Of a stretch of 32,030 bases of DNA, positions 17,200-31,793 are shown piece by piece. Each line of letters starts with the position of its first letter. Positions within the stretch are counted from its first letter, which is position 1. This DNA is from Armatimonadota bacterium. Its GTDB lineage: Bacteria; Armatimonadota; Hebobacteria; GCA-020354555; CP070648. The translations under genes were made by a program, and so were the position numbers. The notes beneath the pieces were generated by a model. It searched no databases, was not told where the DNA came from, and saw nothing but the letters and a program-made list of their open reading frames with translations. The DNA lies in NCBI GenBank assembly GCA_020354555.1, contig CP070648.1:2892456-2924485 (forward strand). Reading direction: 5' to 3'.

Positions 17200-20100
17200 A
17201 TGCGTGGGTTCCGCTTCTTCCTCATCGGTTGCCTGATCGCCGGCGCCGCTTGCCCAATGCTCGCCGCCGGTTATCGCATATCGGTCGGCGAAGGGCTGGA
17301 CGAGATTCCCGTCGTCGTCGTCAGCGGCACGCCTTACGAGATGGGCTATTCCTACGGCAACCTCATGACTGCAGAGGCCCTGGCCTGCATGACCGTCTAT
17401 CTGGATGGCGCTCAGGCCGAGGACCCGGTGCGCTACTCGAACGCGGCGCTCGACGCCGCGTGGGCGGCGGTGGAGCCGTATGTCCATACGCGGTTCATCG
17501 AGGAGATGCAGGGCGTGGCCGACGGCGCGGGAATGAGCTACGACGTGCTGCGCCGCGCGCACTGCGTCACGCTTCTGTCGAACTACGCCTGCAGCGGCGT
17601 CGGAGTGTGGGGTGAGGCGAGCGCCGACGGGCATCTCTACCAGATCCGCAATCTCGATCACGGCTCCGGCGTCGAGCTCGGACTCGGGGCGTATCCGGTC
17701 ATCGTCGTCTATCTCCCCGAGAGCGGCATCCCCCACGCGAACGTTGGGTTCGCGGGATTGGTGGGCTCGATCGCCGGCATGAACGCCGAGGGCATCGCGA
17801 CGACCGAGATCGGGGAGTCCCCGGGCTCGGATTATCCCTTCGACCTCGACGGCATTCCGTTCTTCGTGATGTTCCGCGACATCCTTCAGGACGCCCCCAG
17901 CCTGTACCATGCCCTCAACATCGTCGAGAATGCGAACCGCATCAAGAAATACTACTTCTTCATCGGCGATGGCGACTGGTTGGCAGCGGCGAAGATCAAG
18001 GCGTTCGATCCGTACCTCTGGATCTGGCTCGACAACGACGAGGACGACGAGCTGTGGCCCAACGTGCTACCCAACGTCGTGTACGGGACGATGAACAACG
18101 CCGCCGCCTGGGCGCATCTCAACACCAACTACGGCAATTACGATGCCGCTCTCATGGTAGAGATATCGCGCCTCGTCTCCGACGGCGACTCGAGCCTGAT
18201 GAACGTCGTCTACGACGCCACCACGCGCGAGATGTGGGTCGCCTACGCCGAGGGCGCAGAGTATGCGTACGAGCGGCCGTACGTCTACTTCAACCTCAAT
18301 GACTACGTGCCAGTAGAGACCCCAGAGGTCGGCGGCTACGGATTCTACGAGGTCATCGGCAGCGGCGCGGACGAGATCACGGTGCTGCACACCGGCGGCG
18401 ACCACTACCAGATGGGCTACTGGCACGGGTATCTCCTGCGCGATCAAGTGCAGGCGAACTGCGCCAACGCGCTGGCGGCGGCCGAGGCCGGGGGCATCAC
18501 CGAGGAGATGTGGCGGTGGGCAATCGACTCGATGTGGCTCTACACCCCGTGGGAGTACCTGCAGGAGATGGAGGGACTGGCGGACGGCGCCGCCCTGCCG
18601 GTCGAGATCATCTGGAAGATGCACGCCATTCCGGACCTATCCGAGTTTCACTGCAGCGCCTTCGCGGCGATGGGCAACGCGACCGTTGACGGTCACTGTA
18701 TTCAGCTCAGGAACCTCGACTACGGACTGGAGTTGGCGAGCCAGGATAACCCGTTGTTGGTCGTGTACGAACCCCTCGGCCGCAACAAGTATGTCAACGT
18801 GACGTTCGCGGGCATGCTCGGCTCCATCGCCGGCATGAGCTACGAGCATATTCCGGTGAGCGAGATGGGGGACGATTTCGATTACGACTTCGAGACGCTC
18901 GAAGGTGAGCCGATGCCGTTTGTCCTCAAGGACGTGCTCGAACTCGCGCAGAGCTACACCGAGGCGGAGAACATCATTTCCGCCGCCGCCCGCACCAGCT
19001 CGCTGTGGTACACCGTATCGGACCCCGAGGAAGGCCAGGCCGGGCTCATGCAGACCTCCCCGGTGCGGTTCGACGTGTCCCATCTCGGCGAACCGCCGGG
19101 CGGGGTGCTGCCGCCGATTCCCGACGTCATCTACGGCGGCTACTACGATTTTGAATCGCGCCTCTACAACGATCTCGTAGCGAACTGGGGCAACATAGAT
19201 CCCGCGGTGGCCATCGCGATCTCGGTCCACAACGCGATGAACTCCAACCTGATGAACGCGGTGTACGACGCGACGACACTCGAGATGTGGGTCGCCTATG
19301 CTGAGGGCTACGACCGGGCTGCCAACCGCCCCTACATCTACTTCGACCTCAACTGGCCGACCGAGCCGGTGGCCAGTGCTCAGGCATCGCCGCCAAGCGC
19401 ATCAACGAATGACCTAATCGACTTCAGCGGCGCGGCGTCGTACCACCCCAACCCGAATCATGCGATCGTGTCCTACGAATGGGACTGGGAGAGCGACGGC
19501 ACCTACGACGCGACCGGGGTCACCGCGAGCCACGCCTTCGTCGATGCCGGGCTCCATACGGTCACGCTGCGGGTCACCGACGACTTCATCCCCGGCAACA
19601 CGGCGACGACGACAGTGATGGTCGAGGTGACGGCACGGCCCGTGATTACGAGCTTTGTCATCAACGCCGACGCTCTGAGCACGCAAACGCTGCCGGTGAC
19701 GCTGACCATCGCGGCGACCGACGCGGCGCAGATGCGGTTCCGCAACGACGGTGGGGCGTGGAGCGCGTGGATGCCGTACGCGACGAGCGCGCCGTGGGTG
19801 CTCGCGGCGGGGCCCGAGGGGTGGCGCAAGGTGGACGCGCAGTGCATCAGCGACATCGGCATCGGCTCGTTTGCGGTGAGCGATCTGATCTTCTACGACA
19901 CCACCGACGTGGCGCCGTGGGGCAAGGTGGTGATCGAGGGCGGCGCGGCATACACGGAGAGCCTGGAGGTGACGCTGGATCTCTACGCCACGGGCGCGAC
20001 GCAGATGCGGCTCAAGAACCTCTACGCGGACGCGTGGGGGGAGTGGCAGCCGTACGCGCGGACGACGCAGTGGACGCTGGCGGCGGGCGAGGAGGGCGCG

Positions 20101-21003
20101 CGCGCGGTGTACGTGCAATACCGCGACATGTACGGGGCGCTGTCTGCGCCGCGGGCGGACACGATCTGCTATGACACGGCCGAAGCGCCGGTGGGGCGGG
20201 TGCTCATCAACGGCGGGGCGCAGGAGACGGCGACGCGGTCGGTGACGCTCAACCTGCGGGCGCGGGCGGCGGCGGAGATGCGCTTCAAGCAGCGCTACGC
20301 CGACGCGTGGGGCGCGTGGCAGCCATATGCGGCGACGGCGCCGGCGACCTTGACGCCGGGAGACGACGGGCCGCGCGCGGTGTACGCGCAGTTCCGCGAT
20401 TACCTCGGCACCCAGTCGGCGGCGGTGTGCGACACGATCTACCTCGAAACCGAGGCGCCGCCGGTGGGGTTGATCCGCATCAACCGCGGGGCGGAGCTCA
20501 CGCTGCAGCGGTCGGTGACGCTCAACATCTGGGCGCGCGGTGCGACGGAGATGCGCTTCAAGCACCGCTACGCCGATGCGTGGGAGGCGTGGCGGCCGTA
20601 CGCGACGAGCGTGGCGTGGATGCTGCTCGAGGGCGCGGACGGGGAGCGCGCGGTGTACGCGCAGTTCCGCGATCGGCTGGGCAACATGTCGGATGCGGTA
20701 TGCGACACCATCTACTACGACAGCTTCGCGCCGCCGGAACTCAAGTACTTCCGGATCAACGACAACGCGGAGCGCACCGCGAGTCGCGAGGTGACGCTGA
20801 GCATCGGCGCGAGCGGCGCGGCGCAGATGCGGTTCAAGAACCGCCCGGATGATCCGTGGAGCGCGTGGCAGCCCTATGCGACCCGCGCCCAGTGGCTGCT
20901 GGCGTTGGGCGCGGACGGCGAGCGCGCGGTCTATGCGCAGTGCCGCGACTACCTCGGCTGCCTGTCACAGGTGCAGGCGGATACGATCATTCTGGAGCGG
21001 TAG
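17200..21003 (+). CDS. Secreted tandem C45-like Ntn hydrolase with PKD domain and five C-terminal repeats
   Basis: This 1267-residue protein starts at the ATG at 17200, with GGGAGG 8 nt upstream. A signal peptide (MRGFRFFLIGCL..., cleavage probable after MLAA near residue 23) marks export. Two homologous Ntn-type domains follow, about 25–375 and 380–720. Each has a GxxYxMGYxxG opening, a nucleophile candidate before a TADG-like strand (Cys131 in NYACSGVG, Cys485 in FHCSAFA), an IRNLDxG or LRNLDYG motif, FAGxxGSIAGM, and a nearly identical ending VYDATTxEMWVAYAEG. This pattern fits the C45 acyltransferase/amidohydrolase group. A PKD domain (about 720–810, VSYEWDWESDGTY) is followed by five ~91-residue beta repeats (from about 814, 908, 999, 1090, 1182) with MRFK...AWxPYA...RAVYAQFRD...DTI. 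No anchor is seen at the C-terminus. The substrate is unknown; amide or acyl cleavage outside the cell is inferred. Confidence 0.85.
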   Translation: MRGFRFFLIGCLIAGAACPMLAAGYRISVGEGLDEIPVVVVSGTPYEMGYSYGNLMTAEALACMTVYLDGAQAEDPVRYSNAALDAAWAAVEPYVHTRFIEEMQGVADGAGMSYDVLRRAHCVTLLSNYACSGVGVWGEASADGHLYQIRNLDHGSGVELGLGAYPVIVVYLPESGIPHANVGFAGLVGSIAGMNAEGIATTEIGESPGSDYPFDLDGIPFFVMFRDILQDAPSLYHALNIVENANRIKKYYFFIGDGDWLAAAKIKAFDPYLWIWLDNDEDDELWPNVLPNVVYGTMNNAAAWAHLNTNYGNYDAALMVEISRLVSDGDSSLMNVVYDATTREMWVAYAEGAEYAYERPYVYFNLNDYVPVETPEVGGYGFYEVIGSGADEITVLHTGGDHYQMGYWHGYLLRDQVQANCANALAAAEAGGITEEMWRWAIDSMWLYTPWEYLQEMEGLADGAALPVEIIWKMHAIPDLSEFHCSAFAAMGNATVDGHCIQLRNLDYGLELASQDNPLLVVYEPLGRNKYVNVTFAGMLGSIAGMSYEHIPVSEMGDDFDYDFETLEGEPMPFVLKDVLELAQSYTEAENIISAAARTSSLWYTVSDPEEGQAGLMQTSPVRFDVSHLGEPPGGVLPPIPDVIYGGYYDFESRLYNDLVANWGNIDPAVAIAISVHNAMNSNLMNAVYDATTLEMWVAYAEGYDRAANRPYIYFDLNWPTEPVASAQASPPSASTNDLIDFSGAASYHPNPNHAIVSYEWDWESDGTYDATGVTASHAFVDAGLHTVTLRVTDDFIPGNTATTTVMVEVTARPVITSFVINADALSTQTLPVTLTIAATDAAQMRFRNDGGAWSAWMPYATSAPWVLAAGPEGWRKVDAQCISDIGIGSFAVSDLIFYDTTDVAPWGKVVIEGGAAYTESLEVTLDLYATGATQMRLKNLYADAWGEWQPYARTTQWTLAAGEEGARAVYVQYRDMYGALSAPRADTICYDTAEAPVGRVLINGGAQETATRSVTLNLRARAAAEMRFKQRYADAWGAWQPYAATAPATLTPGDDGPRAVYAQFRDYLGTQSAAVCDTIYLETEAPPVGLIRINRGAELTLQRSVTLNIWARGATEMRFKHRYADAWEAWRPYATSVAWMLLEGADGERAVYAQFRDRLGNMSDAVCDTIYYDSFAPPELKYFRINDNAERTASREVTLSIGASGAAQMRFKNRPDDPWSAWQPYATRAQWLLALGADGERAVYAQCRDYLGCLSQVQADTIILER
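19641..21000 (+). repeat. Five tandem ~273-nt coding repeats
   Basis: Units begin near 19641, 19921, 20194, 20467 and 20743 within the large secreted protein. Units 2 to 5 are spaced 91 or 92 codons apart and units 3 and 4 are the most alike. A 28-nt stretch at 20373–20400 is repeated without change at 20646–20673, exactly 273 nt away. That points to recent duplication or gene conversion. Confidence 0.85.
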
Positions 21004-31324: not shown

Positions 31325-31407
31325 AGCCTGCATTATTCATACCTGTCGCGGGTCGGCAGCATCGTCGTTGCGTGCGCCATAGTCGCTGCTCGCGGATAAT
31401 TCATGAC
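31325..31407. repeat. 83-nt element, copy A, in front of hisS
   Basis: This stretch resembles 25853–25935 at the same ungapped spacing (51 of 83 bases, 27 of the first 33). Read on the minus strand, it contains an ATG-AAT...TAA frame of 23 codons whose stop overlaps the alternative hisS ATG at 31333. It may be a dispersed intergenic repeat, a shared leader, or a conserved promoter region. Confidence 0.45.
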
Positions 31408-31793
31408 TCTTGTGCGCCGCAGGCGTAGCCCAGACGCGCAGTCTGCCTGAAGTCTGCGCTCGTCATGAGTAATCCGGGTGATAGGGGAAATCCCTCGACA
31501 CGCAAGTCTTTCGTCGGGGTCGGCGGCTAATCCTTCCCGAACATGACGGGGGGGCGTTTCCATGGCGGTCCGGTCCCGCCTCAGCGCAAGATGCGATCAT
31601 CAGACCGGGTTGCGCGTCACCGGCGGCTGAGGAGGCACGGCTTGACACCGCGAGGGAGCGGAAGACTCCATGCCGGATGCGGCACGGGCGCACCGGGACG
31701 TACGACGCCGCAGCGAGGTGTGCGCGAAAGAGCATCCGACGGGCCCTGGAAAGTTGGGACGGAGGCGTCCAATGGGTGCGCGCGACGGAGTCG
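31408..31793. other. Leader or intergenic region upstream of hisS, no gene seen
   Basis: Together with copy A above it, 460 bases lie between hisS and the stalk-protein gene. A 7-bp inverted repeat TCATGAC (31401–31407) / GTCATGA (31462–31468) encloses a small CAGAC/GTCTG stem. A TTGACA on the plus strand (31642–31647) has no matching -10. Open frames here are short and Arg/Pro-rich and are not credible. The T-box consensus was looked for and not found. Confidence 0.5.

Follow-up and report, generated by a model that had tools for sequence, protein, structure and literature searches.

A predicted secreted protein with two C45-type cysteine Ntn-hydrolase domains in an Armatimonadota bacterium

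Comparison with described C45 enzymes

Bacterial C45 enzymes are common, and the literature we searched contained no useful functional paper on them. Two described systems stand closest to the gene considered here. Isopenicillin N acyltransferase (IAT) of Penicillium (PDB entries 2x1c and 2x1d) is a single-domain enzyme for which Cys103, Asn119, Asp121, Asn246 and Arg268 have been singled out (PMC13044924). N-acylethanolamine acid amidase (NAAA, 6dxw) and acid ceramidase (5u81) are likewise single-domain, and are lysosomal enzymes of animals; the corresponding residues of acid ceramidase are Cys143, Arg159 and Asp162, and mutation of its Asn320 reduced autocleavage (PMC5915598).

The gene at 17200-21003 (+ strand) of the window (the whole stretch of DNA analyzed, 32,030 nucleotides) is an intact open frame encoding 1267 amino acids. 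It stands by itself, its neighbors lying on the opposite strand; GGGAGGTG precedes its ATG, and a scan for a promoter and terminator of the gene returned nothing above chance. Residues 1-24 (17200-17271, +), from the start codon on, were read by eye as a signal peptide, MRGFRFFLIGCLIAGAACPMLAA having a basic n-region, a hydrophobic core and LAA at its end, such that export of the product is likely. The signal peptide is followed by an N-terminal C45 domain (residues 25-375, 17272-18324, +) containing Cys131, Arg150 and Asp153, a C-terminal C45 domain (residues 376-722, 18325-19365, +) containing Cys485, Arg504 and Asp507, a PKD domain (residues 722-807, 19363-19620, +; Pfam PKD_4 E 4.9e-10 and PKD E 3.4e-7, both above cut-off), and five repeats of ~91 residues that align with one another (residues 812-905, 906-997, 998-1088, 1089-1178 and 1179-1267; 19633-21000, +). 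The two cysteines are 354 residues apart.

Each half belongs to the C45 family in its own right. Against NF040521 (C45_proenzyme, curated cut-off 85 bits), the whole protein scored 227.8 bits, and the N-half and C-half, scored separately, 117.7 and 117.0 bits, scores well outside what chance would give. The Pfam AAT profile (PF03417) gave the protein only 15.2 bits, under the gathering cut-off of 23.2 that several paralogues from the same genome pass. Because an alignment of the tandem protein placed every single-domain row on the N-half, the halves were modeled separately by AF2 from 37-row alignments, giving a pLDDT of 93.2 for the N-half and 92.6 for the C-half, with a pTM of 0.92 for each. 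The top Foldseek match in the PDB for both models was IAT (2x1c/2x1d, TM 0.66-0.72; E against 2x1d 9.6e-16 for the N-half and 8.9e-16 for the C-half), followed by acid ceramidase and NAAA, and the family profile matches the same three enzymes by sequence. These models place a cysteine Ntn-hydrolase fold in each half. The first-pass annotation had described a secreted protein with two C45-like Ntn-hydrolase halves, both with their nucleophile, joined to a PKD domain and five repeats in a family that is usually single-domain. Its description of the domains was borne out by profile search, structure prediction and self-alignment, a single domain is indeed the norm for C45, and secretion is likely.

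The protein nonetheless differs from each of its closest described relatives. It shares the nucleophilic Cys and the Asp of NF040521, but it carries two copies of the domain in one chain together with PKD and repeat domains, and it lacks the Asn of the HTNH motif and a following Arg found in the canonical members compared. It has counterparts of IAT Cys103 and Asp121 but not of Asn246 and Arg268, and it has an Arg three residues before the Asp, as does acid ceramidase. The Cys...RNLD layout is that of NAAA and acid ceramidase, and NAAA is the top match of the subfamily profile, although identity to these enzymes is about 15%. The phylum also has a C45 subfamily of single-domain proteins (e.g. 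L064, L065 and L105-L131), in which the same residues are conserved and HTNH is lost too, but whose members have one C45 domain each. The product of the 17200-21003 gene is thus an unusual fusion inside a known enzyme family, not a new kind of enzyme.

A candidate two-headed amidohydrolase

The nucleophile column is Cys in 48 of 48 aligned domains, and Cys131, Arg150, Leu152, Asp153 and Glu102 are invariant in 38 domains of the subfamily. Cys131/Asp153 in the N-half and Cys485/Asp507 in the C-half correspond to IAT Cys103/Asp121, and sequence alignment to Cys103 would site both cysteines in the active site. The reading we favor, with moderate confidence, is that the gene encodes a secreted, two-headed cysteine Ntn amidohydrolase, made of two fused units from secreted single-domain paralogues, that cleaves itself and hydrolyzes N-acyl amides. 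After export, each C45-type proenzyme unit would cut its own chain just before its Cys, at Ala130-Cys131 and His484-Cys485, freeing an N-terminal Cys to act as nucleophile. The three resulting chains, with predicted masses of about 11.5, 39.3 and 85.9 kDa, would be held together by their folds, and the largest would carry the PKD domain and repeats, a tail that may attach it to a surface or polymer. Such a protein, with two nucleophiles per chain, would make it possible to study how neighboring self-processing enzymes mature and cooperate.

With regard to activity, the substrate of each unit would be a small N-acyl amide. The likeliest role appears to be extracellular: once self-cleaved, the enzyme would hydrolyze N-acyl amides or transfer their acyl groups, as suggested by the family membership and by the presence in the same genome of a gene that fuses a C45 domain to a neutral ceramidase domain. 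An extracellular amidase or acylase had also been the first proposal for this gene, and the family match, the fold and the retention of Cys, Arg and Asp all agree with it. The C45-ceramidase fusion hints at lipid-amide substrates. Counting against the favored reading are an Asn/Arg pair missing from the subfamily (see below), departures of each half at conserved positions, the lack of an operon partner that would indicate a substrate, and the lack of another genome with this architecture. No conserved gene neighbors stood out as a substrate clue in the short loci around 25+ relatives.

Alternatively, only one half could be active, and the other could be a pseudo-enzyme with a regulatory or binding role whose Cys persists through recent descent. 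Each half does depart from its relatives, and at different conserved positions. In the N-half, Gly163 stands in place of a Gln that 37 of 38 relatives retain and adjoins a 2-residue insertion, and Tyr154 is changed to His; in the C-half, Asn195 and Arg226 are replaced by Ser547 and Lys577, and Gly-Tyr stands where most relatives have Ser/Thr-Met. However, neither half has lost its Cys, Arg or Asp, and the N-half is under purifying selection (dN/dS of 0.22 against its nearest paralogue; values for the C-half are 0.64-0.75, over distances too long to be informative). We therefore consider a single active half rather unlikely.

Origin of the two halves

The tandem was at first attributed to internal duplication, on the strength of lined-up motifs and near-identical ends of the two domains. 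As stated, that origin is not supported. At 72% identity, a separate single-domain gene of the same genome is closer to the N-half than the C-half is (35-38%), and a direct sister relation of the two halves is rejected (AU test, p 5.8e-5), largely because the N-half has close paralogues. In a larger tree, support of 100/100 joins the N-half to three single-domain genes from this genome (G000:C1, 3.84 Mb) and to L117, which is single-domain as well but comes from a different family of the phylum. The C-half groups with the secreted paralogue L065, although support of 88/90 is not conclusive, and it begins with GYGFYEVIGSG, similar to the GYGFLTTIGSG found right after the L065 signal peptide. 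The simplest and best-fitting account is that two older secreted paralogues were probably fused, each unit deriving from a different single-domain gene, and that the second would have contributed only its mature part, without the signal peptide.

The likeness of the domain ends, VYDATTREMWVAYAEG and VYDATTLEMWVAYAEG, is itself real: they are 68% identical over 40 residues, versus 31% elsewhere (p 1.3e-5). Single-domain paralogues carry the same end motif, which is thus a family motif and not the mark of a recent duplication. That the ends were made alike by recent gene conversion was also considered and is rejected, as codon identity is no higher there (13/24) than elsewhere (47/90).

An older internal duplication, after which the N-half would have given rise to the single-domain genes of the array, deserves separate consideration. 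Trees that hold both lineages together (the two halves with the array and L117) are not firmly rejected (AU p 0.41 and 0.052), and the domain ends are more alike than the remainder. A clade test on the larger tree that included the array but omitted L117 (p 1.8e-7) was mis-specified, since L117 belongs inside the group, and was set aside. Against an old duplication, L117 comes from a different family yet falls inside the N-half lineage at full support, the C-half tends to group with L065, and the C-half begins where a mature enzyme begins. We regard this history as unlikely, and fusion of two secreted paralogues as the probable one.

The missing Asn/Arg pair and the distribution of relatives

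The HTNH Asn and following Arg, which align with IAT Asn246 and Arg268, are invariant in the 22 canonical C45 relatives compared and are likewise retained by canonical C45 members within this phylum. Equivalents are absent from the 32-sequence subfamily of the window protein, as judged by sequence alignment across a gappy region; the segment at this place reads VVYxSM or similar in the subfamily, with Thr-Met in the N-half and Gly-Tyr in the C-half. The missing Asn matches acid ceramidase Asn320. Because the subfamily lacks the pair, activity and self-cleavage of the window protein can be called only likely, and the oxyanion hole must be built otherwise, perhaps from backbone near Glu203 and Glu555, by analogy with Glu225 of acid ceramidase. 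We offer only tentatively the fullest version of the two-headed enzyme, in which two self-cleavages would yield three chains, the middle one combining the catalytic part of the first unit with the pro-part of the second, and the oxyanion hole would form without the standard Asn.

Loss of the pair throughout the subfamily could instead mean that its members no longer carry out Ntn hydrolysis and that the fold serves another purpose, such as binding, but the invariance of Cys, Arg, Asp and Glu in 38 diverse sequences is hard to explain without catalysis, which makes this improbable. A subfamily of this kind, present in dozens of genomes of the phylum, would offer a test of what an Ntn active site really requires.

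C45 matches occur in 111 of 291 genomes of the phylum, and a profile built from the relatives of the window protein matches 93 of the 291. Among the matches listed from these genomes there is no second C45-C45 frame, and no second genome with the same architecture, in a survey that scored only some candidates per genome and could miss rare tandem copies. A search of 400 genomes of the phylum to which an Anaerolineaceae match belongs gave single-domain matches only, and plasmids gave only weak single-domain matches. In the family's only other genome, a secreted subtilase terminates in repeats resembling those of the tail, so that the tail looks like a general appendage.

The genome itself encodes 13 C45 domains in 12 genes and is a good place to seek C45 substrates. 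Gaps of 100 N lie near two related loci, indicating that the neighborhood of this gene family is hard to assemble. The joined gene might accordingly be a chimera of the scaffolded assembly, in which one such gap cuts the nearest paralogue of the N-half and a second lies right against a copy of the last repeat that is 98% identical, but this is very improbable, since the window contains no N, one continuous frame with a short linker crosses the join, and both halves are distinct from every other copy.

Several other loci are of note. At L062:5153-9808 (G000:C1 about 3843881-3847519), three C45 genes follow one another on a single strand; their identity to the N-half is 58-72%, and the last of them runs into a 100-N scaffold gap. 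At L063:4234-4520 (G000:C1 about 2210233), the copy of the last repeat includes the stop codon, begins right at its gap and diverges past the stop; a second gene with this tail may end at this point. At L065:3705-5603, a weak match to S-layer homology (PF00395, 19.3 bits, cut-off 20.8) comes after the C45 protein, and the locus is cut by a scaffold gap. The ceramidase fusion, at L069:2354-4918 (G000:C1 about 4785353-4787914), joins a neutral/alkaline ceramidase N-terminal domain (PF04734, E 5.1e-32) to C45/AAT, a combination with no other instance among the matches listed from the 291 genomes. L117, at L143:1295-5745 (G045:C14), has as same-strand neighbors a glycoside hydrolase family 2 gene and a URO-D family gene. 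Finally, 90 bases of the window (31329-31418) are 81% identical to a sequence elsewhere in the genome (L063:6862-6773).
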